Shown: in pieces, positions 1 through 59,894 of the stretch
Layout: the number at the start of each line of letters is the position of its first letter
How positions within the stretch are numbered: the first letter of the stretch is position 1
Origin: Ascidia mentula
Lineage: Eukaryota > Chordata > Ascidiacea > Phlebobranchia > Ascidiidae
DNA length: 64,000 nucleotides
Assembly (NCBI GenBank): GCA_947561715.1
Contig: OX387200.1
Location: 11,720,501-11,784,500 of the forward strand
Reading direction: 5' to 3'
Translations under genes and position numbers: made by a program
The notes under the pieces: model-generated
The model's database searches: none
What the model was told of the DNA's origin: nothing
What the model saw: the letters and a program-made list of their open reading frames with translations, nothing else

Positions 1-271
1 CTGCAAAAAAATATTTTTCATCGAAAAGTCATATACTGCAAAATGGACAAGTGCTGAAATCTCATAGTTACATACGTTGTGCAACCGCAAAAGCAATACT
101 GGAGTATCAGCGTTTTCCACTGTATAATAAAGCTTGTACTGCAAAAAAATATTTTTCATCGAAAAGTCATATACTGCAAATTGGAAAAGTGCTGAAATTG
201 CACAGTTGCATACGTTGTGCAACCGCAAAAGCAATACTGGTGTATCAGCGTTTTCCACTGTATAATAAAGC

Positions 272-34400: not shown

Positions 34401-35276
34401 GTTTTCCACTGTATAATAAAGCTTGTACTGAAAAAAAATATTTTTTATCGAAAAGTCATATACTGCAAAATGGACAAGTACTGAAATCTCATAGTTTCAT
34501 ACGTTGTGCAACCGCAAAAGCAATACTGGAATATCAGCGTTTTCCACTGTATAATAAAGCTTGTACTGCAAAAAAATATTTTTCATCGAAAAGTCATATA
34601 CTGCAAAATGGACAAGTGCTGAAATCGCATAGTTACATACGTTGTGCAACCGCAAAAGCAATACTGGAGTATCAGCGTTTTCCACTGTATAATAAAACTT
34701 GTACTGCAAAAAAATATTTTTCATCGAAAAGTCATATACTGCAAATTGGAAAAGTGCTGAAATTGCACAGTTGCATACGTTGTGCAACCGCAAAAGCAAT
34801 ACTGGAATATCAGCGTTGTCCACTGTATAATAAAGCTTGTACTGCAAAAAAATATTTTTCATCGAAAAGTCATATACTGCAAAATGGACAAGTGCTGAAA
34901 TCGCATAGTTACATACGTTGTGCAACCGCAAAAGCAATACTGGAATATCAGCGTTGTCCACTGTATAATAAAGCTTGTACTGCAAAAAAATATTTTTCAT
35001 CGAAAAGTCATATACTGCAAAATGGACAAGTGCTGAAATCGCATACTTGCATACGTTGTGCAACCGCAAAAGCAATACTGGAGTATCAGCGTTTTCCCCT
35101 GTATAATAAAGCTTGTACTGCAAAAAAATATTTTTTATCGCAAATTCAAAAATGCAAAATAGACAAGTGCTGAAATCGCACAGTTGCATACGTTGTGCAA
35201 CCGCAAAAGCAATACTGGAATACCAGCGTTGTCCACTGTATAACAGAGCTTGTACTGAAAAAAATTATTTTTTATC
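31170..35276 (+). repeat. Duplicated block, copy 1 (28,724-bp offset; mate at about 59895-64000)
   Basis: Monomer order and rare variants (GTTGTGGAACCGC near 32583, AAAGCTATACTGGAATAAC near 32320, ACCGCAGAAGC near 33413) reappear 28,724 bp downstream. This shows what the sequence around 33319 looks like without a transposon next to it. The left context of the 10,464-bp block is therefore ordinary, continuous satellite. Confidence 0.85.
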
Positions 35277-38200
35277 GAAAAGTCATATACTGCAAAATGG
35301 ACAAGTACTGAAATCTCATAGTTACATACGTTGTGCAACCGCAAAAGCAATACTGGAGTTCCAGCGTTTTCCACTGTATAATAAAGCTTGTACTGAAAAA
35401 AATTATTTTTTATCGAAAAGTCATATACTGCAAAATGGACAAGTGCTGAAATCTCATAGTTACATACGTTGTGCAACCGCAAAAGCAATACTGGAGTATC
35501 AGCGTTTTCCACTGTATAATAAAGCTTGTACTGAAAAAAAATATTTTTCATCGAAAAGTCATATACTGCAAAATGGACAAGTGCTGAAATCGCACAGTTG
35601 CATACGTTGTGCAACCGCAAAAGCAATACTGGAGTATCAGCGTTTTCCACTGTATAATAAAGCTTGTACTGAAAAAAAATATTTTTTATCGAAAAGTCAT
35701 ATACTGCAAAATGGACAAGTGCTGAAATCGCACAGTTGCATACGTTGTGCAACCGCAAAAGCAATACTGGAATATCAGCGTTGTCCACTGTATAATAAAG
35801 CTTGTACTGAAAAAAAATATTTTTTATCGAAAAGTCATATACTGCAAAATGGACAAGTGCTGAAATCTCATAGTTACATACGTTGTGCAACCGCAAAAGC
35901 AATACTGGAGTACCAGCGTTTTCCACTGTATAATAAAGCTTGTACTGAAAAAAATTATTTTTTATCGAAAAGTCATATATTGCAAAATGGACAAGTGCTG
36001 AAATCTCATAGTTACATACGTTGTGCAACCGCAAAAGCAATACTGGAATATCAGCGTCGTCCACTGCATAATAAAGCTTGTACTGCAAAAAATATTTTTC
36101 ATCGAAAAGTCATATACTGCAAAATGGACAAGTGCTGAAATCGCATAGTTACATACGTTGTGCAACCGCAAAAGCAATACTGGAGTATCAGCGTTTTCCA
36201 CTGTATAATAAAGCTTGTACTGCAAAAAAATATTTTTCATCGAAAAGTCATATACTGCAAAATGGACAAGTGCTGAAATCGCATAGTTAAATACGTTGTG
36301 CAACCGCAAAAGCAATACTGGAGTATCAGCGTTTTCCACTGTATAATAAAGCTTGTACTGCAAAAAAATATTTTTCATCGAAAAGTCATATACTGCAAAA
36401 TGGACAAGTGCTGAAATCGCATAGTTACATACGTTGTGCAACCGCAAAAGCAATACTGGAGTATCAGCGTTTTCCACTGTATAATAAAGCTTGTACTGCA
36501 AAAAAATATTTTTCATCGAAAAGTCATATACTGCAAAATGGACAAGTGCTGAAATCGCATAGTTACCTACGTTGTGCAACCGCAAAAGCAATACTGGAAT
36601 ATCAGCGTTGTCCACTGTATAACAAAGCTTGTACTGAAAAAACATTATTTTTTGTCGAAAAGTCACATACTGCAAAATGGACAAGTGCTGAAATCTCATA
36701 GTTACATACGTTGTGCAACCGCAAAAGCAATACTGGAGTATCAGCGTTTTCCACTGTATAATAAAGCTTGCACTGCAAAAAAATATTTTTCATCGAAAAG
36801 TCATATACTGCAAAATGGACAAGTGCTGAAATCGCATAGTTACATACGTTGTGCAACCGAAAAAGCAATACTGGAGTATCAGCGTTTTCCCTGTATAATA
36901 AAGCTTGTACTGCAAAAAAATATTTTTTATCGAAAAGTCATATACTGCAAAATAGACAAGTGCTGAAATCGCACAGTTGCATACGTTGTGCAACCGCAAA
37001 AGCAATACTGGAATACCAGCGTTTTCCACTGTTAAAGCTTGTACTGAAAAAAATTATTTTTTATCGAAAAGTCATATACTGCAAAATGGACAAGTACTGA
37101 AATCTCATTGTTTCATACGTTGTGCAACCGCAAAAGCAATACTGGAGTACCAGCGTTTTCCACTGTATAATAAAGCTTGTACTGAAAAAAAATATTTTTT
37201 ATCGAAAAGTCATATACTGCAAAATGGACAAGTACTGAAATCTCATAGTTTCATACGTTGTGCAACCGCAAAAGCAATACTGGAATATCAGCGTTTTCCA
37301 CTGTATAATAAAGCTTGTACTGCAAAAAAATATTTTTCATCGAAAAGTCATATACTGCAAAATGGACAAGTGCTGAAATCGCATAGTTACATACGTTGTG
37401 CAACCGCAAAAGCAATACTGGAGTATCAGCGTTTTCCACTGTATAATAAAGCTTGTACTGCAAAAAAATATTTTTCATCGAAAAGTCATATACTGCAAAT
37501 TGGAAAAGTGCTGAAATTGCACAGTTGCATACGTTGTGCAACCGCAAAAGCAATACTGGAATATCAGCGTTGTCCACTGTATAATAAAGCTTGTACTGCA
37601 AAAAAATATTTTTCATCGAAAAGTCATATACTGCAAAATGGACAAGTGCTGAAATCGCATAGTTACATACGTTGTGCAACCGCAAAAGCAATACTGGAAT
37701 ATCAGCGTTGTCCACTGTATAATAAAGCTTGTACTGCAAAAAAATATTTTTCATCGAAAAGTCATATACTGCAAAATGGACAAGTGCTGAAATCGCATAG
37801 TTGCATACGTTGTGCAACCGCAAAAGCAATACTGGAGTATCAGCGTTTTCCCCTGTATAATAAAGCTTGTACTGCAAAAAAATATTTTTTATCGAAAATT
37901 CAAAAATGCAAAATAGACAAGTGCTGAAATCGCATAGTTACATACGTTGTGCAACCGCAAAAGCAATACTGGAATATCAGCGTTGTCCACTGTATAACAA
38001 AGCTTGTACTGAAAAAAATTATTTTTTGTCGAAAAGTCATATACTGCAAAATGGACAAGTGCTGAAATCGCATAGTTACATACGTTGTGCAACCGCAAAA
38101 GCAATACTGGAATATCAGCGTTTTCCACTGTATAATAAAGCTTGTACTGCAAAAAATATTTTTCATCGAAAAGTCATATACTGCAAAATGGACAAGTGCT

Positions 38201-41200
38201 GAAATCGCATAGTTACATACGTTGTGCAACCGCAAAAGCAATACTGGAGTATCAGCGTTTTCCACTGTATAATAAAGCTTGTACTGCAAAAAAATATTTT
38301 TCATCGAAAAGTCATATACTGCAAAATGGACAAGTGCTGAAATCGCATAGTTACGTACGTTGTGCAACCGCAAAAGCAATACTGGAATATCAGCGTTGTC
38401 CAATGTATAATAAAGCTTGTACTGCAAAAAAATATTTTTCATCGAAAAGTCATATACTGCAAAATGGACAAGTGCTGAAATCGCATAGTTGCATACGTTG
38501 TGCAACCGCAAAAGCAATACTGGAGTATCAGCGTTTTCCCCTGTATAATAAAGCTTGTACTGCAAAAAAATATTTTTTATCGAAAAGTCATATACTGCAA
38601 AATAGACAAGTGCTGAAATCGCACAGTTGCATACGTTGTGCAACCGCAAAAGCAATACTGGAATACCAGCGTTTTCCACTGTTAAAGCTTGTACTGAAAA
38701 AAATTATTTTTTATCGAAAAGTCATATACTGCAAAATGGACAAGTACTGAAATCTCATTGTTTCATACGTTGTGCAACCGCAAAAGCAATACTGGAGTAC
38801 CAGCGTTTTCCACTGTATAATAAAGCTTGTACTGAAAAAAAATATTTTTTATCGAAAAGTCATATACTGCAAAATGGACAAGTACTGAAATCTCATAGTT
38901 TCATACGTTGTGCAACCGCAAAAGCAATACTGGAATATCAGCGTTTTCCACTGTATAATAAAGCTTGTACTGCAAAAAAATATTTTTCATCGAAAAGTCA
39001 TATACTGCAAAATGGACAAGTGCTGAAATCGCATAGTTACATACGTTGTGCAACCGCAAAAGCAATACTGGAGTATCAGCGTTTTCCACTGTATAATAAA
39101 GCTTGTACTGCAAAAAAATATTTTTCATCGAAAAGTCATATACTGCAAATTGGAAAAGTGCTGAAATTGCACAGTTGCATACGTTGTGCAACCGCAAAAG
39201 CAATACTGGAATATCAGCGTTGTCCACTGTATAATAAAGCTTGTACTGCAAAAAAATATTTTTCATCGAAAAGTCATATACTGCAAAATGGACAAGTGCT
39301 GAAATCGCATAGTTACATACGTTGTGCAACCGCAAAAGCAATACTGGAATATCAGCGTTGTCCACTGTATAATAAAGCTTGTACTGCAAAAAAATATTTT
39401 TCATCGAAAAGTCATATACTGCAAAATGGACAAGTGCTGAAATCGCATAGTTGCATACGTTGTGCAACCGCAAAAGCAATACTGGAGTATCAGCGTTTTC
39501 CCCTGTATAATAAAGCTTGTACTGCAAAAAAATATTTTTTATCGAAAATTCAAAAATGCAAAATAGACAAGTGCTGAAATCGCACAGTTGCATACGTTGT
39601 GCAACCGCAAAAGCAATACTGGAATACCAGCGTTTTCCACTGTATAACAGAGCTTGTACTGAAAAAAATTATTTTTTATCGAAAAGTCATATACTGCAAA
39701 ATGGACAAGTACTGAAATCTCATAGTTACATACGTTGTGCAACCGCAAAAGCAATACTGGAATATCAGCGTTGTCCACTGTATAATAAAGCTTGTACTGC
39801 AAAAAAATATTTTTCATCGAAAAGTCATATACTGCAAAATGGACAAGTGCTGAAATCGCATAGTTACATACGTTGTGCAACCGCAAAAGCAATACTGGAA
39901 TATCAGCGTTGTCCACTGTATAATAAAGCTTGTACTGCAAAAAAATATTTTTCATCGAAAAGTCATATACTGCAAAATGGACAAGTGCTGAAATCGCATA
40001 GTTGCATACGTTGTGCAACCGCAAAAGCAATACTGGAGTATCAGCGTTTTCCCCTGTATAATAAAGCTTGTACTGCAAAAAAATATTTTTTATCGAAAAT
40101 TCAAAAATGCAAAATAGACAAGTGCTGAAATCGCACAGTTGCATACGTTGTGCAACCGCAAAAGCAATACTGGAATACCAGCGTTTTCCACTGTATAACA
40201 GAGATTGTACTGAAAAAAATTATTTTTTATCGAAAAGTCATATACTGCAAAATGGACAAGTACTGAAATCTCATAGTTACATACGTTGTGCAACCGCAAA
40301 AGCAATACTGGAGTTCCAGCGTTTTCCACTGTATAATAAAGCTTGTACTGAAAAAAATTATTTTTTATCGAAAAGTCATATACTGCAAAATGGACAAGTG
40401 CTGAAATCTCATAGTTACATACGTTGTGCAACCGCAAAAGCAATACTGGAGTATCAGCGTTTTCCACTGTATAATAAAGCTTGTACTGAAAAAAAAATTT
40501 TTCATCGAAAAGTCATATACTGCAAAATGGACAAGTGCTGAAATCGCACAGTTGCATACGTTGTGCAACCGCAAAAGCAATACTGGAGTATCAGCGTTTT
40601 CCACTGTATAATAAAGCTTGTACTGAAAAAAAATATTTTTTATCGAAAAGTCATATACTGCAAAATGGACAAGTGCTGAAATCGCACAGTTGCATACGTT
40701 GTGCAACCGCAAAAGCAATACTGGAATATCAGCGTTGTCCACTGTATAATAAAGCTTGTACTGAAAAAAAATATTTTTTATCGAAAAGTCATATACTGCA
40801 AAATGGACAAGTGCTGAAATCGCATAGTTAAATACGTTGTGCAACCGCAAAAGCAATACTGGAGTATCAGCGTTTTCCACTGTATAATAAAGCTTGTACT
40901 GCAAAAAAATATTTTTCATCGAAAAGTCATATACTGCAAAATGGACAAGTGCTGAAATCGCATAGTTACATACGTTGTGCAACCGCAAAAGCAATACTGG
41001 AGTATCAGCGTTTTCCACTGTATAATAAAGCTTGTACTGCAAAAAAATATTTTTCATCGAAAAGTCATATACTGCAAAATGGACAAGTGCTGAAATCGCA
41101 TAGTTACCTACGTTGTGCAACCGCAAAAGCAATACTGGAATATCAGCGTTGTCCACTGTATAACAAAGCTTGTACTGAAAAAACATTATTTTTTGTCGAA

Positions 41201-43782
41201 AAGTCACATACTGCAAAATGGACAAGTGCTGAAATCTCATAGTTACATACGTTGTGCAACCGCAAAAGCAATACTGGAGTATCAGCGTTTTCCACTGTAT
41301 AATAAAGCTTGTACTGCAAAAAAATATTTTTCATCGAAAAGTCATATACTGCAAAATGGACAAGTGCTGAAATCGCATAGTTGCATACGTTGTGCAACCG
41401 CAAAAGCAATACTGGAGTATCAGCGTTTTCCCCTGTATAATAAAGCTTGTACTGCAAAAAAATATTTTTTATCGAAAAGTCATATACTGCAAAATAGACA
41501 AGTGCTGAAATCGCACAGTTGCATACGTTGTGCAACCGCAAAAGCAATACTGGAATACCAGCGTTTTCCACTGTTAAAGCTTGTACTGAAAAAAATTATT
41601 TTTTATCGAAAAGTCATATACTGCAAAATGGACAAGTACTGAAATCTCATTGTTTCATACGTTGTGCAACTGCAAAAGCAATACTGGAGTACCAGCGTTT
41701 TCCACTGTATAATAAAGCTTGTACTGAAAAAAAATATTTTTTATCGAAAAGTCATATACTGCAAAATGGACAAGTACTGAAATCTCATAGTTTCATACGT
41801 TGTGCAACCGCAAAAGCAATACTGGAATATCAGCGTTGTCCACTGTATAATAAAGCTTGTACTGCAAAAAAATATTTTTCATCGGAAAGTCATATACTGC
41901 AAAATGGACAAGTGCTGAAATCGCATAGTTACATACGTTGTGCAACCGCAAAAGCAATACTGGAATATCAGCGTTGTCCACTGTATAATAAAGCTTGTAC
42001 TGAAAAAAAATATTTTTCATCGAAAAGTCATATACTGCAAAATGGACAAGTGCTGAAATCGCATAGTTACATACGTTGTGCAACCGCAAAAGCAATACTG
42101 GAGTATCAGCGTTTTCCACTGTATAATAAAGCTTGTACTGCAAAAAAATATTTTTCATCGAAAAGTCATATACTGCAAAATGGACAAGTGCTGAAATCGC
42201 ATAGTTGCATACGTTGTGCAACCGCAAAAGCAATACTGGAGTATCAGCGTTTTCCCCTGTATAATAAAGCTTGTACTGCAAAAAAATATTTTTTATCGAA
42301 AATTCAAAAATGCAAAATAGACAAGTGCTGAAATCGCACAGTTGCATACGTTGTGCAACCGCAAAAGCAATACTGGAATACCAGCGTTTTCCACTGTATA
42401 ACAGAGCTTGTACTGAAAAAAATTATTTTTTATCGAAAAGTCATATACTGCAAAATGGACAAGTACTGAAATCTCATAGTTACATACGTTGTGCAACCGC
42501 AAAAGCAATACTGGAATATCAGCGTTGTCCACTGTATAATAAAGCTTGTACTGCAAAAAAATATTTTTCATCGAAAAGTCATATACTGCAAAATGGACAA
42601 GTGCTGAAATCGCATAGTTACATACGTTGTGCAACCGCAAAAGCAATACTGGAATATCAGCGTTGTCCACTGTATAATAAAGCTTGTACTGCAAAAAAAT
42701 ATTTTTCATCGAAAAGTCATATACTGCAAAATGGACAAGTGCTGAAATCGCATAGTTGCATACGTTGTGCAACCGCAAAAGCAATACTGGAGTATCAGCG
42801 TTTTCCCCTGTATAATAAAGCTTGTACTGCAAAAAAATATTTTTTATCGAAAATTCAAAAATGCAAAATAGACAAGTGCTGAAATCGCACAGTTGCATAC
42901 GTTGTGCAACCGCAAAAGCAATACTGGAATACCAGCGTTTTCCACTGTATAACAGAGCTTGTACTGAAAAAAATTATTTTTTATCGAAAAGTCATATACT
43001 GCAAAATGGACAAGTACTGAAATCTCATAGTTACATACGTTGTGCAACCGCAAAAGCAATACTGGAGTTCCAGCGTTTTCCACTGTATAATAAAGCTTGT
43101 ACTGAAAAAAATTATTTTTTATCGAAAAGTCATATACTGCAAAATGGACAAGTGCTGAAATCTCATAGTTACATACGTTGTGCAACCGCAAAAGCAATAC
43201 TGGAGTATCAGCGTTTTCCACTGTATAATAAAGCTTGTACTGAAAAAAAAATTTTTCATCGAAAAGTCATATACTGCAAAATGGACAAGTGCTGAAATCG
43301 CACAGTTGCATACGTTGTGCAACCGCAAAAGCAATACTGGAGTATCAGCGTTTTCCACTGTATAATAAAGCTTGTACTGAAAAAAAATATTTTTTATCGA
43401 AAAGTCATATACTGCAAAATGGACAAGTGCTGAAATCGCACAGTTGCATACGTTGTGCAACCGCAAAAGCAATACTGGAATATCAGCGTTGTCCACTGTA
43501 TAATAAAGCTTGTACTGAAAAAAAATATTTTTTATCGAAAAGTCATATACTGCAAAATGGACAAGTGCTGAAATCTCATAGTTACATACGTTGTGCAACC
43601 GCAAAAGCAATACTGGAGTACCAGCGTTTTCCACTGTATAATAAAGCTTGTACTGAAAAAAATTATTTTTTATCGAAAAGTCATATATTGCAAAATGGAC
43701 AAGTGCTGAAATCTCATAGTTACATACGTTGTGCAACCGCAAAAGCAATACTGGAATATCAGCGTTGTCCACTGCATAATAA
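33319..43782 (+). repeat. 10,464-bp satellite block, copy 1 (mate at 47180-57643)
   Basis: Every marker I compared recurs at an offset of exactly 13,861 bp, which is 10,464 plus the 3,397-bp island. Examples are 34223 and 48084, 36977 and 50838, 40068 and 53929, and 42822 and 56683. Repeat-wide open frames on both strands match over the full length, which checks nearly every base. The only difference I found is C at 34145 against T at 48006. The block is close to 76 monomers, less 24 bp for short variants. Its right edge abuts the transposon. Confidence 0.93.
34223..35173 (+). repeat. Seven-monomer (about 951-bp) unit, one of seven copies
   Basis: A run of seven monomers in fixed order starts just before a 134-bp monomer (CTGTTAAAGC) and ends at a 137-bp monomer with AATTCAAAAATGC. 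It begins at 34223, 36977, 38627, 48084, 50838, 52488 and 62947. Spacings of 1,650 and 2,754 bp are 12- and 20-monomer multiples less 6 bp. The unit is a local higher-order module of the right half and was not seen complete before 33 kb. Confidence 0.82.
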
Positions 43783-43796
43783 CCCAGTCATAAATT
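43783..43796 (+). repeat. Transposon terminal inverted repeat, left end
   Basis: CCCAGTCATAAATT here pairs with CCCAGTCAAAAATT read inward from the right end (47179-47166), with one mismatch in 14. The satellite stops immediately before the first C. Confidence 0.83.
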
Positions 43797-44040
43797 TAGG
43801 CACGGCCCTTGTCACTTTATGTCAAGATACGCTTGGCATCAAGCTTGGGCGACGCATGTTCACCGTACTTAAATGTTGGATATATGTTCGGCGTATGTTC
43901 TACAATTGAACAAATCCAAGCTTGGCCGAGCGAGCTTTCGCCGTGCGTTTACCGAACATAATGATATTGCCTGGCTGCTTTCAAAATATGACCTGATCAA
44001 ACTCGCTACTTCACCGTCTCGCACGTAACACGACTTAAAT
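43797..44040. other. Left subterminal region of the transposon
   Basis: No open frame of note. It is richer in short GC-containing motifs than the core of the element, and several recur near the other end. CCGAACATA at 43952-43960 parallels CCGAACGTA at 47056-47064, TTCGGCGTATG lies near 43888, and AAGCTTGG occurs twice near 43850 and 43919. GGCACGGCC near 43799 has a counterpart, GGCCGTGCC, near 47098. Clusters of such motifs in element ends often serve as transposase binding sites. That role is inferred here. Confidence 0.5.
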
Positions 44041-44051
44041 TAACACAATGT

Positions 44052-44057
44052 TTTATT
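44052..44057 (-). terminator. Polyadenylation signal AATAAA for the transposon transcripts
   Basis: Minus-strand AATAAA lies about 210 bp after the stop codon of the second gene and inside the left end of the element, where a 3' end is expected. Another AATAAA-like string (ATAAATAAAA) lies just upstream near 44070-44080. Confidence 0.6.
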
Positions 44058-44263
44058 GAAAGCAACAACACATAAATAAAAATACAGTGGCAAGCGCAGT
44101 GGAAGTACAGAGTAACTTGAAGTGCACTGTTCGAGGAAACTATGTACTCTGGGACGTGGTGGGCTTTATTGAGGATTGTTTGCCGTTTCTTGATATTCTG
44201 TCGTCACTCCGGCAACAACTCCAGGTAAAACTCGTTTCCCCGCCGTGGCGATTTCTTGGTATT

Positions 44264-45466
44264 TCACTGCCTGCGTCTTGCATCTTTCAATGCGTCTGCA
44301 GAACATAAAACATATGATTTAGTTAAAATTTTGGTAACATTCTGTCGTGCACAGAAATTAAATATTTGACATGTGGGAATTAAATATGTGAAAGTTGTGA
44401 CAACTTCACAATCGGAAGGCTTTACAATGAGGCCCGCAGTGTGGCGTGTCTTGTGAGATTTCCAAAGCAATTTGACTCACCCAACATAAATGCCAACAGA
44501 GGATGTGATTTGAATGGGATTTTTGTTTTCCTGCGCCAAAACAAAATTGAAGAGCCAGGTGTTTTGTCATAAACAGCTTTACAGAATTCCGGAAGGTGCC
44601 ACGAAGTTGGTCCATGTCCATCACTTGGGCAAGTTTTACTTTGTCCTTTTGAAAAGTATCAACATACAAAATGATGAAAATGTATAGCAGATGTCATTTA
44701 CAGTGTAAAGCATGCAGACAAAAGCCTCAGTGCATTAGGGAAAAAGAAAGCTCACATTTGGTTTAGTAAGTAGAGCCATCAGATGTTCTTCGTTGACAGC
44801 TGATTGCGGCAAAAACTTTTCTGCCACACATGTGTTTTTTTTCTGTCAGAGTTTCCATTCTCTGAATTCGGTCACCAATCCTCCGCATTTCTTCCTTCAC
44901 CTTTATTGTTTTGTCGATAAGGATGCCAATGTTTTCAGACAGTTCATGCTCCTGTCATTGTGACATTGTTTTTGCTGCTTGGGTGGCAAGAACCTGTTGA
45001 AAGTAAACTAAAATAAGCAAATGCACAAGCAAAGGTCCCCAGTCAATTAAAAAAATAAAGATGAATAATATGTGCCAGTTTTATGCATAAAAATCAGCAC
45101 AAGGTTTATGGACCTTTTTTTGCAAGAGAGGTATCGTGGAAGAAGAACTGCTTTCAGTGGATTCGCTCATTAGAATGTCCCTTTCCAGATCAGCAGATCT
45201 ACATTTTCTTTTCAAACAACGGGCATTTGTGCCTGAAAAGAACAAAGTGCATGAAACAAAAATGCACAATTATTTGGCACAAATACACAACTTACTCCCT
45301 TCACAAAGAATGGTGGAAGGACATGTCTGCCAAGCTGCATCCACAGAAATTTCATTTTTCAAGAATCTTTATACATCCAAATTGATGGGTGTCCACTTAC
45401 ATGCATTGGTGCCGACCATCCAGCCTTTGGGGATTTTATACAAACAAAATTTTTCATTCTAATGTA
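44264..45466 (-). pseudogene. Second transposon gene: coiled-coil protein with DUF4806-like C-terminus, broken
   Basis: Five exons can be traced on the minus strand with GT-AG borders in matching phase: 45466-45296, 45232-45114, 44993-44756, 44645-44481 and 44295-44264. In order the protein shows KIPKGWMVG, a WQTCPSTI...ARCLKRK segment, a serine-rich acidic linker (ERDILMSESTESSSSS), a coiled coil (ENIGILIDK...KVKEEMRRIGDRIQRME) and a C-terminal domain with LRGTFRNSVKLFMTKHLALQF, ending DALKDARRRQ. This layout is known from small proteins carried by animal DNA transposons, where their role is unclear. It is inactive: in-frame stops lie at 45369-45371 and 44955-44957, and the reading frame slips at two A-runs, after METLTEK in exon 3 and after FGAGK in exon 4. 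Slips at homopolymers could also be sequencing error. The 5' start is not found; exon 1 opens at a splice acceptor 33 bp past the transposase stop. The DUF4806 match is from memory of the domain's pattern. Confidence 0.68.
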
Positions 45467-45498
45467 CTGTGGAAGAAACAAATATACATGCAGATATA

Positions 45499-46587
45499 TC
45501 ATGTGGCATCAAGCAAATTAATGGCAACAAAATGTCCTTTATATGGCAACAGAATGCACCTTCTAATTTGATCATTATCACCATAAAAACCACACACTTT
45601 GTAAATTCCGACATGTTTTAAGTTGACAAGGTTTTTTGAAAAGACGACAATTGTTTTTGAACGACAATATGCAACCAAGAATCAATAGTGTAAATGTCAC
45701 AAAGTCGATAAATATCATTGCTTTGTGAAATGGTCGAGTCGCTGATTTTTGTTGTAAAATTGCTATTGGCCAATCCACAAACCTTGTTATTGTGTGGGAA
45801 AGGAACACTTGGAGGGAAATTTACTATTTGGTTAATTTGCACTATTGCTTTGACAGTTTTTTCGACGGGATATTATATGGAAATTAAGAAACACATAATG
45901 GGAAGTTTGGTTTTCATAAAATGCAAATCTTGCAATTTGTTGCATAGGTTTGTAGCCAGATTTACAACTTTTTTTCAAACAACCCCAGTAATTTTCAAAT
46001 TGAAAACAGCCAATGTTTTCCAATGAACCATGTTTTTCATAATCATTACACAAGTGGATCAAACAATGAACATTGTAACTGACAAATGCTTTACCATAAA
46101 TATGTGAAGATTTGCTAACAAAGTCTTTTAGCATTTTGACACATAACGAAAACTCATGTGTGTTAATGTTTGGCGACAACAAACATCTCATAGCTAAAGA
46201 AAAATGCAGAAAATGACAATACGTTTATGGCACAGCACATTTTTATCTTTTAACAGCACCACTCCCACATACAGCATAAATAGTCTGAATTCTGTTGCTT
46301 TCCAGTAAAGCAAATCAGACAAAGGCCTCGATTTTCTGTTGAACTCAAGCGGTATAAATTCCTTATATTTTGTAAGGTTGTGGTGACGTTAACATGACGA
46401 CAGTTGAAGAAAGCTTAACTTGCAATTGGCGTGGTCTACCCCTCCACCAGATTAACAATCGACGCATTACACCCAAACATGCAAGATGCGTATTCACCCT
46501 TGATCTAAATTTGAGTCGCAAGTATATCAAACAGAAATACCTGACATAAAACAACTGCTGTCGCAAACCACCTGTAAATTTAGACAA
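45499..46587 (-). pseudogene. Transposase-like gene, C-terminal part only, broken
   Basis: On the minus strand, pieces occur in the order expected for a transposase family widespread in arthropods and cnidarians, whose members carry DYMHL.CLGV.R.LL..W. The pieces are HLACLGVMRRLLIWWRG (46500-46437), then SRPLSDLL and WKATEFRLFMLYVG (around 46325-46260), then SYNVHCLIHLCNDYEKHGS and FQFENYWGCLKK (around 46085-45985), and finally RRCILLPYKGHFVAINLLD near the stop at 45499-45501. The segment appears to lack introns. It needs about four single-base frame changes to be read through, so it is a pseudogene. Typical members have several hundred residues before the CLGV motif. Only about 590 bp separates this motif from the element end, and I recognise no coding sequence there, so the N-terminal half has been lost. 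Without it the element cannot make its own transposase. Confidence 0.72.
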
Positions 46588-47165
46588 GGTTTCCCGCCGT
46601 CAAGTCATTACTACAACAAACAACTCATTAATTACGCGGTTAGCCAAGCCTCCTAGCCTGTCCTGCCTGCTTGTTGTTCATCCAACCATGACGAAGCAGC
46701 GCCTCAGCTTCGCTTTGTAATATTTAAAAAAACATTTTAGTTAGCTCGCAAAATCAACAAATAGCCTATTATGGTAAAAATCACTGACAATAATTTGCCC
46801 TCCAAAACTGCAGGTGTCACAACCCCACGGCAGAACTCACCAAGAGAGGTACAACCAAACTACCTCAAAATGAAATAAAATCAACTTCATGCTTCTATGC
46901 CCACCTTATGACAAAACAATATGATATGTGTGACACAGGTATACGCAGAAACACTCCCGCCGACGAAACTCACCTTCAAGCACCGTATTGCACTTCAAAA
47001 TTATTTTGCGCAGGGGGAAATTATGCAAACTTAAGCACGGCGCACCATTCGTAAACCGAACGTATAAGTTTGGCTGACGTCCGAATAAGTGCTGATTGGC
47101 CGTGCCAAGCTTAAACGCACTAAACCGAGCTTAAACCAAGCTAGGCCCATACTAAAGGGGTAGAT
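46588..47165 (-). other. Right end of transposon: possible non-coding first exon and leader
   Basis: About 580 bp without a recognisable coding frame. A strong minus-strand splice donor, AAG|GTGAGT, lies at 46973-46968 and could close a first exon starting in the subterminal region. The outer 150 bp hold several CCGAA and AAGCTT-type motifs (47056-47064, 47106-47111, 47123-47145) shared with the left end. The missing transposase N-terminus would be expected here, so the inner edge near 46590 may mark an old internal deletion. Confidence 0.4.
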
Positions 47166-47179
47166 AATTTTTGACTGGG
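47166..47179 (-). repeat. Transposon terminal inverted repeat, right end
   Basis: On the plus strand this reads AATTTTTGACTGGG, the inverse of the left terminus with one mismatch. Satellite sequence resumes at the next base. Confidence 0.83.
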
Positions 47180-50100
47180 AAAGCTTGTACTGCAAAAAAA
47201 TATTTTTCATCGAAAAGTCATATACTGCAAAATGGACAAGTGCTGAAATCGCATAGTTACATACGTTGTGCAACCGCAGAAGCAATACTGGAGTATCAGC
47301 GTTTTCCACTGTATAATAAAGCTTGTACTGCAAAAAAATATTTTTCATCGAAAAGTCATATACTGCAAATTGGAAAAGTGCTGAAATTGCACAGTTGCAT
47401 ACGTTGTGCAACCGCAAAAGCAATACTGGAATATCAGCGTTGTCCACTGTATAATAAAGCTTGTACTGCAAAAAAATATTTTTCATCGAAAAGTCATATA
47501 CTGCAAAATGGACAAGTGCTGAAATCGCATAGTTACATACGTTGTGCAACCGCAAAAGCAATACTGGAATATCAGCGTTGTCCACTGTATAATAAAGCTT
47601 GTACTGCAAAAAAATATTTTTTATCGAAAATTCAAAAATGCAAAATAGACAAGTGCTGAAATCGCATAGTTACATACGTTGTGCAACCGCAAAAGCAATA
47701 CTGGAGTATCAGCGTTTTCCACTGTATAATAAAGCTTGTACTGCAAAAAAATATTTTTCATCGAAAAGTCATATACTGCAAAATGGACAAGTGCTGAAAT
47801 CGCATAGTTACATACGTTGTGCAACCGCAAAAGCAATACTGGAATATCAGCGTTGTCCACTGTATAATAAAGCTTGTACTGCAAAAAAATATTTTTCATC
47901 GAAAAGTCATATACTGCAAAATGGACAAGTGCTGAAATCGCATAGTTGCATACGTTGTGCAACCGAAAAAGCAATACTGGAGTATCAGCGTTTTCCCCTG
48001 TATAATAAAGCTTGTACTGCAAAAAAATATTTTTTATCGAAAAGTCATATACTGCAAAATAGACAAGTGCGGAAATCGCACAGTTGCATACGTTGTGCAA
48101 CCGCAAAAGCAATACTGGAATACCAGCGTTTTCCACTGTTAAAGCTTGTACTGAAAAAAATTATTTTTTATCGAAAAGTCATATACTGCAAAATGGACAA
48201 GTACTGAAATCTCATTGTTTCATACGTTGTGCAACCGCAAAAGCAATACTGGAGTACCAGCGTTTTCCACTGTATAATAAAGCTTGTACTGAAAAAAAAT
48301 ATTTTTTATCGAAAAGTCATATACTGCAAAATGGACAAGTACTGAAATCTCATAGTTTCATACGTTGTGCAACCGCAAAAGCAATACTGGAATATCAGCG
48401 TTTTCCACTGTATAATAAAGCTTGTACTGCAAAAAAATATTTTTCATCGAAAAGTCATATACTGCAAAATGGACAAGTGCTGAAATCGCATAGTTACATA
48501 CGTTGTGCAACCGCAAAAGCAATACTGGAGTATCAGCGTTTTCCACTGTATAATAAAACTTGTACTGCAAAAAAATATTTTTCATCGAAAAGTCATATAC
48601 TGCAAATTGGAAAAGTGCTGAAATTGCACAGTTGCATACGTTGTGCAACCGCAAAAGCAATACTGGAATATCAGCGTTGTCCACTGTATAATAAAGCTTG
48701 TACTGCAAAAAAATATTTTTCATCGAAAAGTCATATACTGCAAAATGGACAAGTGCTGAAATCGCATAGTTACATACGTTGTGCAACCGCAAAAGCAATA
48801 CTGGAATATCAGCGTTGTCCACTGTATAATAAAGCTTGTACTGCAAAAAAATATTTTTCATCGAAAAGTCATATACTGCAAAATGGACAAGTGCTGAAAT
48901 CGCATACTTGCATACGTTGTGCAACCGCAAAAGCAATACTGGAGTATCAGCGTTTTCCCCTGTATAATAAAGCTTGTACTGCAAAAAAATATTTTTTATC
49001 GCAAATTCAAAAATGCAAAATAGACAAGTGCTGAAATCGCACAGTTGCATACGTTGTGCAACCGCAAAAGCAATACTGGAATACCAGCGTTGTCCACTGT
49101 ATAACAGAGCTTGTACTGAAAAAAATTATTTTTTATCGAAAAGTCATATACTGCAAAATGGACAAGTACTGAAATCTCATAGTTACATACGTTGTGCAAC
49201 CGCAAAAGCAATACTGGAGTTCCAGCGTTTTCCACTGTATAATAAAGCTTGTACTGAAAAAAATTATTTTTTATCGAAAAGTCATATACTGCAAAATGGA
49301 CAAGTGCTGAAATCTCATAGTTACATACGTTGTGCAACCGCAAAAGCAATACTGGAGTATCAGCGTTTTCCACTGTATAATAAAGCTTGTACTGAAAAAA
49401 AATATTTTTCATCGAAAAGTCATATACTGCAAAATGGACAAGTGCTGAAATCGCACAGTTGCATACGTTGTGCAACCGCAAAAGCAATACTGGAGTATCA
49501 GCGTTTTCCACTGTATAATAAAGCTTGTACTGAAAAAAAATATTTTTTATCGAAAAGTCATATACTGCAAAATGGACAAGTGCTGAAATCGCACAGTTGC
49601 ATACGTTGTGCAACCGCAAAAGCAATACTGGAATATCAGCGTTGTCCACTGTATAATAAAGCTTGTACTGAAAAAAAATATTTTTTATCGAAAAGTCATA
49701 TACTGCAAAATGGACAAGTGCTGAAATCTCATAGTTACATACGTTGTGCAACCGCAAAAGCAATACTGGAGTACCAGCGTTTTCCACTGTATAATAAAGC
49801 TTGTACTGAAAAAAATTATTTTTTATCGAAAAGTCATATATTGCAAAATGGACAAGTGCTGAAATCTCATAGTTACATACGTTGTGCAACCGCAAAAGCA
49901 ATACTGGAATATCAGCGTCGTCCACTGCATAATAAAGCTTGTACTGCAAAAAATATTTTTCATCGAAAAGTCATATACTGCAAAATGGACAAGTGCTGAA
50001 ATCGCATAGTTACATACGTTGTGCAACCGCAAAAGCAATACTGGAGTATCAGCGTTTTCCACTGTATAATAAAGCTTGTACTGCAAAAAAATATTTTTCA

Positions 50101-53100
50101 TCGAAAAGTCATATACTGCAAAATGGACAAGTGCTGAAATCGCATAGTTAAATACGTTGTGCAACCGCAAAAGCAATACTGGAGTATCAGCGTTTTCCAC
50201 TGTATAATAAAGCTTGTACTGCAAAAAAATATTTTTCATCGAAAAGTCATATACTGCAAAATGGACAAGTGCTGAAATCGCATAGTTACATACGTTGTGC
50301 AACCGCAAAAGCAATACTGGAGTATCAGCGTTTTCCACTGTATAATAAAGCTTGTACTGCAAAAAAATATTTTTCATCGAAAAGTCATATACTGCAAAAT
50401 GGACAAGTGCTGAAATCGCATAGTTACCTACGTTGTGCAACCGCAAAAGCAATACTGGAATATCAGCGTTGTCCACTGTATAACAAAGCTTGTACTGAAA
50501 AAACATTATTTTTTGTCGAAAAGTCACATACTGCAAAATGGACAAGTGCTGAAATCTCATAGTTACATACGTTGTGCAACCGCAAAAGCAATACTGGAGT
50601 ATCAGCGTTTTCCACTGTATAATAAAGCTTGCACTGCAAAAAAATATTTTTCATCGAAAAGTCATATACTGCAAAATGGACAAGTGCTGAAATCGCATAG
50701 TTACATACGTTGTGCAACCGAAAAAGCAATACTGGAGTATCAGCGTTTTCCCTGTATAATAAAGCTTGTACTGCAAAAAAATATTTTTTATCGAAAAGTC
50801 ATATACTGCAAAATAGACAAGTGCTGAAATCGCACAGTTGCATACGTTGTGCAACCGCAAAAGCAATACTGGAATACCAGCGTTTTCCACTGTTAAAGCT
50901 TGTACTGAAAAAAATTATTTTTTATCGAAAAGTCATATACTGCAAAATGGACAAGTACTGAAATCTCATTGTTTCATACGTTGTGCAACCGCAAAAGCAA
51001 TACTGGAGTACCAGCGTTTTCCACTGTATAATAAAGCTTGTACTGAAAAAAAATATTTTTTATCGAAAAGTCATATACTGCAAAATGGACAAGTACTGAA
51101 ATCTCATAGTTTCATACGTTGTGCAACCGCAAAAGCAATACTGGAATATCAGCGTTTTCCACTGTATAATAAAGCTTGTACTGCAAAAAAATATTTTTCA
51201 TCGAAAAGTCATATACTGCAAAATGGACAAGTGCTGAAATCGCATAGTTACATACGTTGTGCAACCGCAAAAGCAATACTGGAGTATCAGCGTTTTCCAC
51301 TGTATAATAAAGCTTGTACTGCAAAAAAATATTTTTCATCGAAAAGTCATATACTGCAAATTGGAAAAGTGCTGAAATTGCACAGTTGCATACGTTGTGC
51401 AACCGCAAAAGCAATACTGGAATATCAGCGTTGTCCACTGTATAATAAAGCTTGTACTGCAAAAAAATATTTTTCATCGAAAAGTCATATACTGCAAAAT
51501 GGACAAGTGCTGAAATCGCATAGTTACATACGTTGTGCAACCGCAAAAGCAATACTGGAATATCAGCGTTGTCCACTGTATAATAAAGCTTGTACTGCAA
51601 AAAAATATTTTTCATCGAAAAGTCATATACTGCAAAATGGACAAGTGCTGAAATCGCATAGTTGCATACGTTGTGCAACCGCAAAAGCAATACTGGAGTA
51701 TCAGCGTTTTCCCCTGTATAATAAAGCTTGTACTGCAAAAAAATATTTTTTATCGAAAATTCAAAAATGCAAAATAGACAAGTGCTGAAATCGCATAGTT
51801 ACATACGTTGTGCAACCGCAAAAGCAATACTGGAATATCAGCGTTGTCCACTGTATAACAAAGCTTGTACTGAAAAAAATTATTTTTTGTCGAAAAGTCA
51901 TATACTGCAAAATGGACAAGTGCTGAAATCGCATAGTTACATACGTTGTGCAACCGCAAAAGCAATACTGGAATATCAGCGTTTTCCACTGTATAATAAA
52001 GCTTGTACTGCAAAAAATATTTTTCATCGAAAAGTCATATACTGCAAAATGGACAAGTGCTGAAATCGCATAGTTACATACGTTGTGCAACCGCAAAAGC
52101 AATACTGGAGTATCAGCGTTTTCCACTGTATAATAAAGCTTGTACTGCAAAAAAATATTTTTCATCGAAAAGTCATATACTGCAAAATGGACAAGTGCTG
52201 AAATCGCATAGTTACGTACGTTGTGCAACCGCAAAAGCAATACTGGAATATCAGCGTTGTCCAATGTATAATAAAGCTTGTACTGCAAAAAAATATTTTT
52301 CATCGAAAAGTCATATACTGCAAAATGGACAAGTGCTGAAATCGCATAGTTGCATACGTTGTGCAACCGCAAAAGCAATACTGGAGTATCAGCGTTTTCC
52401 CCTGTATAATAAAGCTTGTACTGCAAAAAAATATTTTTTATCGAAAAGTCATATACTGCAAAATAGACAAGTGCTGAAATCGCACAGTTGCATACGTTGT
52501 GCAACCGCAAAAGCAATACTGGAATACCAGCGTTTTCCACTGTTAAAGCTTGTACTGAAAAAAATTATTTTTTATCGAAAAGTCATATACTGCAAAATGG
52601 ACAAGTACTGAAATCTCATTGTTTCATACGTTGTGCAACCGCAAAAGCAATACTGGAGTACCAGCGTTTTCCACTGTATAATAAAGCTTGTACTGAAAAA
52701 AAATATTTTTTATCGAAAAGTCATATACTGCAAAATGGACAAGTACTGAAATCTCATAGTTTCATACGTTGTGCAACCGCAAAAGCAATACTGGAATATC
52801 AGCGTTTTCCACTGTATAATAAAGCTTGTACTGCAAAAAAATATTTTTCATCGAAAAGTCATATACTGCAAAATGGACAAGTGCTGAAATCGCATAGTTA
52901 CATACGTTGTGCAACCGCAAAAGCAATACTGGAGTATCAGCGTTTTCCACTGTATAATAAAGCTTGTACTGCAAAAAAATATTTTTCATCGAAAAGTCAT
53001 ATACTGCAAATTGGAAAAGTGCTGAAATTGCACAGTTGCATACGTTGTGCAACCGCAAAAGCAATACTGGAATATCAGCGTTGTCCACTGTATAATAAAG

Positions 53101-56100
53101 CTTGTACTGCAAAAAAATATTTTTCATCGAAAAGTCATATACTGCAAAATGGACAAGTGCTGAAATCGCATAGTTACATACGTTGTGCAACCGCAAAAGC
53201 AATACTGGAATATCAGCGTTGTCCACTGTATAATAAAGCTTGTACTGCAAAAAAATATTTTTCATCGAAAAGTCATATACTGCAAAATGGACAAGTGCTG
53301 AAATCGCATAGTTGCATACGTTGTGCAACCGCAAAAGCAATACTGGAGTATCAGCGTTTTCCCCTGTATAATAAAGCTTGTACTGCAAAAAAATATTTTT
53401 TATCGAAAATTCAAAAATGCAAAATAGACAAGTGCTGAAATCGCACAGTTGCATACGTTGTGCAACCGCAAAAGCAATACTGGAATACCAGCGTTTTCCA
53501 CTGTATAACAGAGCTTGTACTGAAAAAAATTATTTTTTATCGAAAAGTCATATACTGCAAAATGGACAAGTACTGAAATCTCATAGTTACATACGTTGTG
53601 CAACCGCAAAAGCAATACTGGAATATCAGCGTTGTCCACTGTATAATAAAGCTTGTACTGCAAAAAAATATTTTTCATCGAAAAGTCATATACTGCAAAA
53701 TGGACAAGTGCTGAAATCGCATAGTTACATACGTTGTGCAACCGCAAAAGCAATACTGGAATATCAGCGTTGTCCACTGTATAATAAAGCTTGTACTGCA
53801 AAAAAATATTTTTCATCGAAAAGTCATATACTGCAAAATGGACAAGTGCTGAAATCGCATAGTTGCATACGTTGTGCAACCGCAAAAGCAATACTGGAGT
53901 ATCAGCGTTTTCCCCTGTATAATAAAGCTTGTACTGCAAAAAAATATTTTTTATCGAAAATTCAAAAATGCAAAATAGACAAGTGCTGAAATCGCACAGT
54001 TGCATACGTTGTGCAACCGCAAAAGCAATACTGGAATACCAGCGTTTTCCACTGTATAACAGAGATTGTACTGAAAAAAATTATTTTTTATCGAAAAGTC
54101 ATATACTGCAAAATGGACAAGTACTGAAATCTCATAGTTACATACGTTGTGCAACCGCAAAAGCAATACTGGAGTTCCAGCGTTTTCCACTGTATAATAA
54201 AGCTTGTACTGAAAAAAATTATTTTTTATCGAAAAGTCATATACTGCAAAATGGACAAGTGCTGAAATCTCATAGTTACATACGTTGTGCAACCGCAAAA
54301 GCAATACTGGAGTATCAGCGTTTTCCACTGTATAATAAAGCTTGTACTGAAAAAAAAATTTTTCATCGAAAAGTCATATACTGCAAAATGGACAAGTGCT
54401 GAAATCGCACAGTTGCATACGTTGTGCAACCGCAAAAGCAATACTGGAGTATCAGCGTTTTCCACTGTATAATAAAGCTTGTACTGAAAAAAAATATTTT
54501 TTATCGAAAAGTCATATACTGCAAAATGGACAAGTGCTGAAATCGCACAGTTGCATACGTTGTGCAACCGCAAAAGCAATACTGGAATATCAGCGTTGTC
54601 CACTGTATAATAAAGCTTGTACTGAAAAAAAATATTTTTTATCGAAAAGTCATATACTGCAAAATGGACAAGTGCTGAAATCGCATAGTTAAATACGTTG
54701 TGCAACCGCAAAAGCAATACTGGAGTATCAGCGTTTTCCACTGTATAATAAAGCTTGTACTGCAAAAAAATATTTTTCATCGAAAAGTCATATACTGCAA
54801 AATGGACAAGTGCTGAAATCGCATAGTTACATACGTTGTGCAACCGCAAAAGCAATACTGGAGTATCAGCGTTTTCCACTGTATAATAAAGCTTGTACTG
54901 CAAAAAAATATTTTTCATCGAAAAGTCATATACTGCAAAATGGACAAGTGCTGAAATCGCATAGTTACCTACGTTGTGCAACCGCAAAAGCAATACTGGA
55001 ATATCAGCGTTGTCCACTGTATAACAAAGCTTGTACTGAAAAAACATTATTTTTTGTCGAAAAGTCACATACTGCAAAATGGACAAGTGCTGAAATCTCA
55101 TAGTTACATACGTTGTGCAACCGCAAAAGCAATACTGGAGTATCAGCGTTTTCCACTGTATAATAAAGCTTGTACTGCAAAAAAATATTTTTCATCGAAA
55201 AGTCATATACTGCAAAATGGACAAGTGCTGAAATCGCATAGTTGCATACGTTGTGCAACCGCAAAAGCAATACTGGAGTATCAGCGTTTTCCCCTGTATA
55301 ATAAAGCTTGTACTGCAAAAAAATATTTTTTATCGAAAAGTCATATACTGCAAAATAGACAAGTGCTGAAATCGCACAGTTGCATACGTTGTGCAACCGC
55401 AAAAGCAATACTGGAATACCAGCGTTTTCCACTGTTAAAGCTTGTACTGAAAAAAATTATTTTTTATCGAAAAGTCATATACTGCAAAATGGACAAGTAC
55501 TGAAATCTCATTGTTTCATACGTTGTGCAACTGCAAAAGCAATACTGGAGTACCAGCGTTTTCCACTGTATAATAAAGCTTGTACTGAAAAAAAATATTT
55601 TTTATCGAAAAGTCATATACTGCAAAATGGACAAGTACTGAAATCTCATAGTTTCATACGTTGTGCAACCGCAAAAGCAATACTGGAATATCAGCGTTGT
55701 CCACTGTATAATAAAGCTTGTACTGCAAAAAAATATTTTTCATCGGAAAGTCATATACTGCAAAATGGACAAGTGCTGAAATCGCATAGTTACATACGTT
55801 GTGCAACCGCAAAAGCAATACTGGAATATCAGCGTTGTCCACTGTATAATAAAGCTTGTACTGAAAAAAAATATTTTTCATCGAAAAGTCATATACTGCA
55901 AAATGGACAAGTGCTGAAATCGCATAGTTACATACGTTGTGCAACCGCAAAAGCAATACTGGAGTATCAGCGTTTTCCACTGTATAATAAAGCTTGTACT
56001 GCAAAAAAATATTTTTCATCGAAAAGTCATATACTGCAAAATGGACAAGTGCTGAAATCGCATAGTTGCATACGTTGTGCAACCGCAAAAGCAATACTGG

Positions 56101-57643
56101 AGTATCAGCGTTTTCCCCTGTATAATAAAGCTTGTACTGCAAAAAAATATTTTTTATCGAAAATTCAAAAATGCAAAATAGACAAGTGCTGAAATCGCAC
56201 AGTTGCATACGTTGTGCAACCGCAAAAGCAATACTGGAATACCAGCGTTTTCCACTGTATAACAGAGCTTGTACTGAAAAAAATTATTTTTTATCGAAAA
56301 GTCATATACTGCAAAATGGACAAGTACTGAAATCTCATAGTTACATACGTTGTGCAACCGCAAAAGCAATACTGGAATATCAGCGTTGTCCACTGTATAA
56401 TAAAGCTTGTACTGCAAAAAAATATTTTTCATCGAAAAGTCATATACTGCAAAATGGACAAGTGCTGAAATCGCATAGTTACATACGTTGTGCAACCGCA
56501 AAAGCAATACTGGAATATCAGCGTTGTCCACTGTATAATAAAGCTTGTACTGCAAAAAAATATTTTTCATCGAAAAGTCATATACTGCAAAATGGACAAG
56601 TGCTGAAATCGCATAGTTGCATACGTTGTGCAACCGCAAAAGCAATACTGGAGTATCAGCGTTTTCCCCTGTATAATAAAGCTTGTACTGCAAAAAAATA
56701 TTTTTTATCGAAAATTCAAAAATGCAAAATAGACAAGTGCTGAAATCGCACAGTTGCATACGTTGTGCAACCGCAAAAGCAATACTGGAATACCAGCGTT
56801 TTCCACTGTATAACAGAGCTTGTACTGAAAAAAATTATTTTTTATCGAAAAGTCATATACTGCAAAATGGACAAGTACTGAAATCTCATAGTTACATACG
56901 TTGTGCAACCGCAAAAGCAATACTGGAGTTCCAGCGTTTTCCACTGTATAATAAAGCTTGTACTGAAAAAAATTATTTTTTATCGAAAAGTCATATACTG
57001 CAAAATGGACAAGTGCTGAAATCTCATAGTTACATACGTTGTGCAACCGCAAAAGCAATACTGGAGTATCAGCGTTTTCCACTGTATAATAAAGCTTGTA
57101 CTGAAAAAAAAATTTTTCATCGAAAAGTCATATACTGCAAAATGGACAAGTGCTGAAATCGCACAGTTGCATACGTTGTGCAACCGCAAAAGCAATACTG
57201 GAGTATCAGCGTTTTCCACTGTATAATAAAGCTTGTACTGAAAAAAAATATTTTTTATCGAAAAGTCATATACTGCAAAATGGACAAGTGCTGAAATCGC
57301 ACAGTTGCATACGTTGTGCAACCGCAAAAGCAATACTGGAATATCAGCGTTGTCCACTGTATAATAAAGCTTGTACTGAAAAAAAATATTTTTTATCGAA
57401 AAGTCATATACTGCAAAATGGACAAGTGCTGAAATCTCATAGTTACATACGTTGTGCAACCGCAAAAGCAATACTGGAGTACCAGCGTTTTCCACTGTAT
57501 AATAAAGCTTGTACTGAAAAAAATTATTTTTTATCGAAAAGTCATATATTGCAAAATGGACAAGTGCTGAAATCTCATAGTTACATACGTTGTGCAACCG
57601 CAAAAGCAATACTGGAATATCAGCGTTGTCCACTGCATAATAA
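47180..57643 (+). repeat. 10,464-bp satellite block, copy 2
   Basis: Near-identical copy of 33319-43782. It begins at the base after the transposon and ends inside ordinary satellite, with no transposon at its right edge. Rare markers shared with copy 1 include ACCGCAGAAGC (near 47274), CATACTTGCATACG (near 48903), AGAGATTGTACTG (near 54061) and GTCCACTGCATAATAA (near 57628). Confidence 0.93.
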
Positions 57644-59894
57644 AGCTTGTACTGCAAAAAATATTTTTCATCGAAAAGTCATATACTGCAAAATGGACAA
57701 GTGCTGAAATCGCATAGTTACATACGTTGTGCAACCGCAAAAGCAATACTGGAGTATCAGCGTTTTCCACTGTATAATAAAGCTTGTACTGCAAAAAAAT
57801 ATTTTTCATCGAAAAGTCATATACTGCAAAATGGACAAGTGCTGAAATCGCATAGTTAAATACGTTGTGCAACCGCAAAAGCAATACTGGAGTATCAGCG
57901 TTTTCCACTGTATAATAAAGCTTGTACTGCAAAAAAATATTTTTCATCGAAAAGTCATATACTGCAAAATGGACAAGTGCTGAAATCGCATAGTTACATA
58001 CGTTGTGCAACCGCAAAAGCAATACTGGAGTATCAGCGTTTTCCACTGTATAATAAAGCTTGTACTGCAAAAAAATATTTTTCATCGAAAAGTCATATAC
58101 TGCAAAATGGACAAGTGCTGAAATCGCATAGTTACCTACGTTGTGCAACCGCAAAAGCAATACTGGAATATCAGCGTTGTCCACTGTATAACAAAGCTTG
58201 TACTGAAAAAACATTATTTTTTGTCGAAAAGTCACATACTGCAAAATGGACAAGTGCTGAAATCTCATAGTTACATACGTTGTGCAACCGCAAAAGCAAT
58301 ACTGGAGTATCAGCGTTTTCCACTGTATAATAAAGCTTGTACTGCAAAAAAATATTTTTCATCGAAAAGTCATATACTGCAAAATGGACAAGTGCTGAAA
58401 TCGCATAGTTGCATACGTTGTGCAACCGCAAAAGCAATACTGGAGTATCAGCGTTTTCCCCTGTATAATAAAGCTTGTACTGCAAAAAAATATTTTTTAT
58501 CGAAAAGTCATATACTGCAAAATAGACAAGTGCTGAAATCGCACAGTTGCATACGTTGTGCAACCGCAAAAGCAATACTGGAATACCAGCGTTTTCCACT
58601 GTTAAAGCTTGTACTGAAAAAAATTATTTTTTATCGAAAAGTCATATACTGCAAAATGGACAAGTACTGAAATCTCATTGTTTCATACGTTGTGCAACTG
58701 CAAAAGCAATACTGGAGTACCAGCGTTTTCCACTGTATAATAAAGCTTGTACTGAAAAAAAATATTTTTTATCGAAAAGTCATATACTGCAAAATGGACA
58801 AGTACTGAAATCTCATAGTTTCATACGTTGTGCAACCGCAAAAGCAATACTGGAATATCAGCGTTGTCCACTGTATAATAAAGCTTGTACTGCAAAAAAA
58901 TATTTTTCATCGGAAAGTCATATACTGCAAAATGGACAAGTGCTGAAATCGCATAGTTACATACGTTGTGCAACCGCAAAAGCAATACTGGAATATCAGC
59001 GTTGTCCACTGTATAATAAAGCTTGTACTGAAAAAAAATATTTTTCATCGAAAAGTCATATACTGCAAAATGGACAAGTGCTGAAATCGCATAGTTACAT
59101 ACGTTGTGCAACCGCAAAAGCAATACTGGAGTATCAGCGTTTTCCACTGTATAATAAAGCTTGTACTGCAAAAAAATATTTTTCATCGAAAAGTCATATA
59201 CTGCAAAATGGACAAGTGCTGAAATCGCATAGTTACATACGTTGTGCAACCGCAAAAGCAATACTGGAATATCAGCGTTGTCCACTGTATAACAAAGCTT
59301 GTACTGAAAAAAATTATTTTTTGTCGAAAAGTCATATACTGCAAAATGGACAAGTGCTGAAATCGCATAGTTACATACGTTGTGCAACCGCAAAAGCAAT
59401 ACTGGAATATCAGCGTTGTCCACTGTATAATAAAGCTTGTACTGCAAAAAATATTTTTCATCGAAAAGTCATATACTGCAAAATAGACAAGTGCTGAAAT
59501 CGCACAGTTGCATACGTTGTGCAACCGCAAAAGCAATACTGGAATACCAGCGTTTTCCACTGTTAAAGCTTGTACTGAAAAAAATTATTTTTTATCGAAA
59601 AGTCATATACTGCAAAATGGACAAGTACTGAAATCTCATTGTTTCATACGTTGTGCAACCGCAAAAGCAATACTGGAGTACCAGCGTTTTCCACTGTATA
59701 ATAAAGCTTGTACTGAAAAAAATTATTTTTTATCGAAAAGTCATATACTGCCAAATGGACAAGTACTGAAATCTCATAGTTTCATACGTTGTGCAACCGC
59801 AAAAGCAATACTGGAATATCAGCGTTTTCCACTGTATAATAAAGCTTGTACTGCAAAAAAATATTTTTCATCGAAAAGTCATATACTGCAAAAT

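Follow-up and report, generated by a model that had tools for sequence, protein, structure and literature searches.

A DNA transposon on the exact seam of a recent satellite duplication in Ascidia mentula suggests that transposon movement or exchange made the duplication

We analysed a window of 64,000 nucleotides from the ascidian Ascidia mentula (contig OX387200.1, here C67, positions 11720501-11784500), near the middle of this 22.7-Mb contig, in which a DNA transposon, T, lies within satellite DNA. The window is one 138-bp satellite array throughout (Tandem Repeats Finder, TRF: period 138, 464 copies, 91% matches) except for the T island at 43783-47179, which is its single interruption; Rfam gave nothing at gathering thresholds. 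Positions refer to the window, and those above 64000 or below zero continue the same numbering beyond its edges. The features are given below, with A for the duplicated satellite block, X for the array to its left and Y for the array to its right.

1..64000 except the island, plus strand: 138-bp satellite array (TRF)
33318..33319, no strand: outer join X/A, older, ordinary satellite without an element, continuous with 59871-64081
33319..43782, plus strand: block A, copy 1, 76 monomers, 10,464 bp, one mismatch against copy 2, edges sharp by monomer
34145, plus strand: the only difference between the block copies, a derived C in copy 1 against thymine in copy 2 (48006) and in two older relatives
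43781..43782, no strand: left 2-bp flank AA (end of block A); removal of T and one AA restores the empty site
43783..47179, no strand: transposon T, 3,397 bp, inverted ends CCCAGTCATAAATT and CCCAGTCAAAAATT, 13 of 14 positions matching
45832..46224, minus strand: 130-codon open frame with weak, near-full-span resemblance to Pfam DUF4218
47180..47181, no strand: right 2-bp flank AA (start of block A), as for the left flank
47180..57643, plus strand: block A, copy 2, by alignment to copy 1
57643..57644, no strand: outer join A/Y, older, ordinary satellite, continuous with 74645-76883, ATAATAAAGCTTG intact

T sits on the seam of a tandem duplication, as a sequence-only reading of this DNA had claimed for a 10.5-kb satellite block. 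The two block copies form the longest near-identical repeat within the window; they align without gaps, and with T removed the block is exactly 76 monomers. The 15 paired monomers to the left of the block pair differ by 3-13 bases each, and the 15 to the right by 0-12, the latter reaching down to 0 because a partly similar block follows; random monomer pairs (n = 2,000) differ by 7.0 bases on average. The ends of T abut the block exactly, 43782 being the last base homologous to 57643 and 47180 the first homologous to 33319. These flank matches had been proposed before and both are present, but 33319 is not the sole match on the right, where the flank also matches an older relative of the block start at 62043-64081 (1 mismatch in 2,039 bp). 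In the T-free sequence, homology at the block shift spans 33314-43800, which leaves a seam interval of 26 bp with T inside it, close to the roughly 25 bp estimated earlier. At 25 of the 28 pattern-matching sites of the C67 stretch, a 6-A tract comes after the left-flank variant CACTGC; the right flank has 7 A.

The X/A join sits inside a longer and older match (31147-35357 with 59871-64081, 4 mismatches), and the A/Y join inside another (56344-58582 with 74645-76883, 13 mismatches) and is also spanned by a third (57112-58585 with 70321-71794, 9 mismatches). Each outer join is thus contained in an older match, which makes X-A-Y the earlier order and A-T-A the new junction. Neither T nor an excision footprint is found at either outer edge of the block pair, which bears out the view that the island joins block end to block start between edges of ordinary satellite. 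A single insertion of T into a continuous older monomer is ruled out, as its flanks derive from two different places; for the window, a longer periodic array containing T, in which every position would resemble a seam, is ruled out because homology at this shift extends over 10,487 bp and the shift is 10,462.

T is a DNA transposon whose inverted ends read CCCAGTCA and are both complete, with matching 2-bp flanks (AA on both sides) and flanking satellite in register; without T and one AA, the usual satellite string ATAATAAAGCTTG remains. Genome-wide, T-like ends at up to three mismatches give 97 left-end and 97 right-end matches, mostly within about 1 Mb on each large contig, and six other T copies of 3,397 bp are present on five other contigs, with 2-bp flank duplications at those loci. 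Of the 11 distinct insertion loci that we read (13 rows, of which two are duplicate copies), nine, including the window, have collinear satellite flanks and matching 2-bp duplications of AA, AT, TA or TT, at monomer phases 82/83 (five loci), 1/2 (two, one being the window), 43/44 and 75/76 (one each), and these collinear insertions occur in both orientations. Because matching duplications are found at four monomer positions and in both orientations, the flanks point to several independent transpositions of the T family into favoured satellite targets. The six loci on other contigs have ordinary local flanks over the roughly 0.8-1.5 kb read per side (more on C69); as these loci had no seam scan, seams could be missed there.

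On contig C69 (11691380-11703004), two identical T copies lie 8,228 bp apart, with right flanks identical across all 783 bp read. The nearest flanks of the C69 and C73 insertions share a rare variant; a common origin of the two is not supported by ungapped flank comparison, which gives about 10 differences among the first 220 positions of one side and, on the other, differences already at positions 5 and 9.

We searched 184,051 bp of the array for ungapped tandem duplications shifted by 250-15,000 bp; this stretch begins 5 kb to the left of the window, ends at C67:11909296 and excludes three T copies. The scan returned 20 clean tandem duplications, of which some are copies of each other nested in larger ones. 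The seam intervals of all 20 account for 1.2% of positions, those of up to about 100 bp for 0.36% (661 bp), and the interval holding T for 0.014%; by hand calculation, the probability that at least one of three T insertions would fall at a sharp seam is about 1%. A chance position of T at the seam is therefore unlikely, though not negligible, in agreement with the earlier assessment. This bears directly on the rival that survives best, in which ordinary unequal exchange duplicated the block and T inserted later into the seam. We consider it unlikely. It draws on the preference of the T family for a few satellite positions, on the seam share over all 20 duplications and on the 19 of them that have no T at the seam, and is opposed by the much smaller shares for sharp seams and for this seam. 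It is further opposed by the T-free joined 50-mer, which has no exact match in the genome, so that a pre-existing empty seam elsewhere is rejected; at one mismatch, the 50-mer occurs at 515 genome places. The substitutions private to the window T among seven equal-length copies (2 in 3,397 bp), set against one difference between the block copies (20,928 bp), weakly suggest that T is older than the duplication (P 0.053), although the private bases could stem from an unseen source copy. The nearest relative of the window T among the aligned copies is on C52, with 10 differences, and dating T by divergence is too weak to order the events.

Taken together, the structure suggests, without proving, that movement or exchange of T made the duplication. 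Its most likely route, to which we give a probability of somewhat more than one in three, is hybrid-end (alternative) transposition between chromatids, a mechanism that predicts the structure from one element and was absent from the causes proposed earlier. Before the event, the array would have had the order X-A-Y and carried T at one edge of A, on either the A/Y or the X/A side. During or after replication, the transposase would have paired one T end on one chromatid with the opposite T end on its sister or on the homologous chromatid, forming a hybrid element that would insert about 10.5 kb away in the satellite, at an AA target in the same register. One product would be X-A-T-A-Y, a direct duplication with one complete T at the joint and outer edges without T, and the other a deletion, X-T-Y. 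As T favours few monomer positions, finding another target in register is plausible.

In the P element of Drosophila, one element on two chromatids is enough for hybrid element insertion, which leaves a flanking duplication with the element at the joint; P belongs to a different transposase family and makes 8-bp duplications. Compared with P, the hybrid insertion of T would be read from structure alone. Passages of PMC3744419 and PMC2775673 mention hybrid element insertion of P, the former with flanking rearrangements. The published mark of duplications made by Ac, as described in part of PMC3744419, is that their endpoints fall precisely at transposon termini. In the window, the joint of two direct copies likewise coincides with the transposon termini, and both outer edges are free of element and excision footprint. 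According to the same passages, maize Ac/Ds reversed ends transposition (RET) also gives two direct copies with endpoints at termini, an element at the joint and at least one element-free breakpoint, on a kilobase scale (8,157 bp upward). In contrast to the window, RET in those passages uses two nearby elements in reverse orientation and makes 8-bp duplications, whereas here we find one element within about 50 kb, a 2-bp duplication, satellite DNA and no reciprocal product. Galileo, in passages of PMC2775673, resembles T as a class II element with chimeric copies at rearrangement breakpoints; it differs in that its rearrangements are inversions by ectopic recombination with exchanged 7-bp duplications, while T lies in a direct duplication with 2-bp flanks that are indistinguishable. 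No such case was found in open-licence literature (largely abstracts, with passages of PMC12312487) that deals with alternative or hybrid transposition or with transposons located in satellites or centromeres.

Several observations weigh against hybrid-end transposition. The 19 clean duplications without T at the seam mean that the array duplicates in tandem without T, and two further T insertions to the right of the window, in the same array, are ordinary and off-seam. In the T pair on C69, the edge of left-flank homology lies 402 bp from T and not at T. No reciprocal deletion, parental allele or read is in evidence. RET would need a second element nearby, and the window has one T, with the nearest others about 50 kb to the left and 117 kb to the right; hybrid insertion, unlike RET, would need no second element. 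Among maize hAT insertions, passages of PMC3744419 report such duplications in 3 of 7,611, and the prior for a transposon-made duplication is therefore low. Finally, T has no long transposase frame, its longest stop-to-stop frame wholly inside being 130 amino acids, so the enzyme must come from elsewhere.

T is probably non-autonomous. The match of its 130-amino-acid frame to DUF4218 (E 0.024, 14.9 bits) is under the 27-bit cut-off. Outside the T family, relatives of this frame have about 37-49% identity and open frames of up to 726 amino acids, and identity to parts of 701-726-amino-acid genomic frames is 43-48%, both among the matches listed (150 of 186). Three of the 701-726-amino-acid frames (C67:1855518, C2:17429241 and C73:12253759) each have a T-like inverted end, with 3 mismatches, about 2.2 kb away. 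Because of this proximity, a source of the enzyme may exist, and these frames may be that transposase source. CACTA/EnSpm elements have CACTA/CACTG termini and a 3-bp target duplication, unlike T, which ends in CCCAGTC and has 2-bp duplications of AA, AT, TA or TT. T may share with the plant CACTA/EnSpm elements covered in excerpts of PMC8978399 and PMC7320549 a frame of the DUF4218/Tnp2 transposase type, to go by its weak, sub-threshold DUF4218 similarity, and it has AAGCTTGG-like short motifs near both ends, as judged by eye.

A break left by insertion or excision of T could also have been repaired with template switching. In such a repair, T and up to about 20 bp of satellite would have been copied before the sister was re-invaded one block upstream in register, and A copied again. 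Satellite homology would then set the second copy in register without a second target site; the seam lies at most 26 bp from the break, and tandem duplications are common in the array, with 20 clean cases. The re-invasion would have to follow almost immediately after T, and by sequence this route is inseparable from the other T-linked ones. We regard it as rather unlikely.

Crossover between two T insertions of the same orientation, one at X/A on one homologue and one at A/Y on the other, seems less likely again. It would fit the look of the T copies, which appear mosaic: across the seven copies, the four-gamete test is failed by 126 of 780 informative site pairs, corresponding to at least six exchanges, with recurrent mutation also possible. 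The left junction of the window T, ATAATAA followed by CCCAGTC, is found again in a C1 array, where 12 of its 13 matches lie. Such a crossover calls for two segregating insertions that agree in phase and orientation and lie about 10 kb from each other; had one chromosome carried both, the product should contain three T copies, following the argument made for Ac in part of PMC3744419.

Two other T loci of the same array have rearranged flanks. Tb (C67:11686173-11690155, with its copy Td at 11709935-11713917) sits precisely where the satellite changes strand, from reverse on its left to forward on its right; each flank begins at reference monomer position 43, with AT on either side. At Ta (C67:11669115-11672344, with its copy Tc at 11692877-11696106), the 2-bp flanks do not match and about 30 bp of satellite are missing between them. 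Counting the window, three of the five distinct T loci of the C67 stretch mark a rearrangement, and strand-switch and unmatched-flank junctions are of the kinds that alternative transposition could make. A simple inversion by exchange between Ta and Tb, which are in opposite orientation, is ruled out, since there is a second strand switch, at 11672817, which is 473 bp away from Ta and lacks a T.

An assembly artefact, by a join inside T or the collapse of a longer block-T array, is the least likely account: a 13.9-kb period with one difference approaches long-read length and T-bearing arrays exist on other contigs, but both joins are base-exact at the T ends and in register, the copies differ by one base, and a random misjoin would ignore the T ends unless made inside T. 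Of the causes proposed in the sequence-only reading, exchange between T copies is plausible in view of the mosaic copies and the two loci with rearranged flanks, and no cause is singled out. It is fairly probable that the duplication is tied to T by one of three routes considered jointly, namely hybrid-end transposition, template-switch repair or crossover between homologues.

The growth of satellite arrays is usually attributed to unequal exchange and replication slippage. With T lying right on the seam of a 76-monomer duplication that is very recent, the window provides a testable case of array growth that would be driven by transposon chemistry or by the break it makes. T repeats at regular intervals, mostly of 4,365 bp on C68, of 5,945, 4,701 and 3,597 bp on C1, of 4,284 bp on C71 and of 4,785 bp on C2, and therefore belongs there to higher-order units of T and satellite, whose periods differ between contigs. 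The block-T-block structure may be the birth stage of such T-bearing repeating units of 3.6-5.9 kb. A broader idea, which we hold as doubtful, is that transposition directly builds centromere-type satellite architecture: block-T-block would arise in one step, its arms would then exchange unequally into T-bearing higher-order arrays, the window would represent the initial stage, and those T junctions that have a strand switch or lack a target duplication would be by-products of this reaction. The case of T at the seam would also link single insertions to transposon-bearing repeat units on several contigs of the genome.

The array itself contains several nested duplication layers. The match of 31147-35357 with 59871-64081 is an older layer with a shift of 28,724, since offset by one monomer. 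To the left of the window, C67:11666744-11714988 (window positions -53756 to -5512) holds a 24.5-kb match with a shift of 23,762 and 35 mismatches, a large tandem duplication that contains about 10.7 kb of other sequence besides T copies and inverted satellite.

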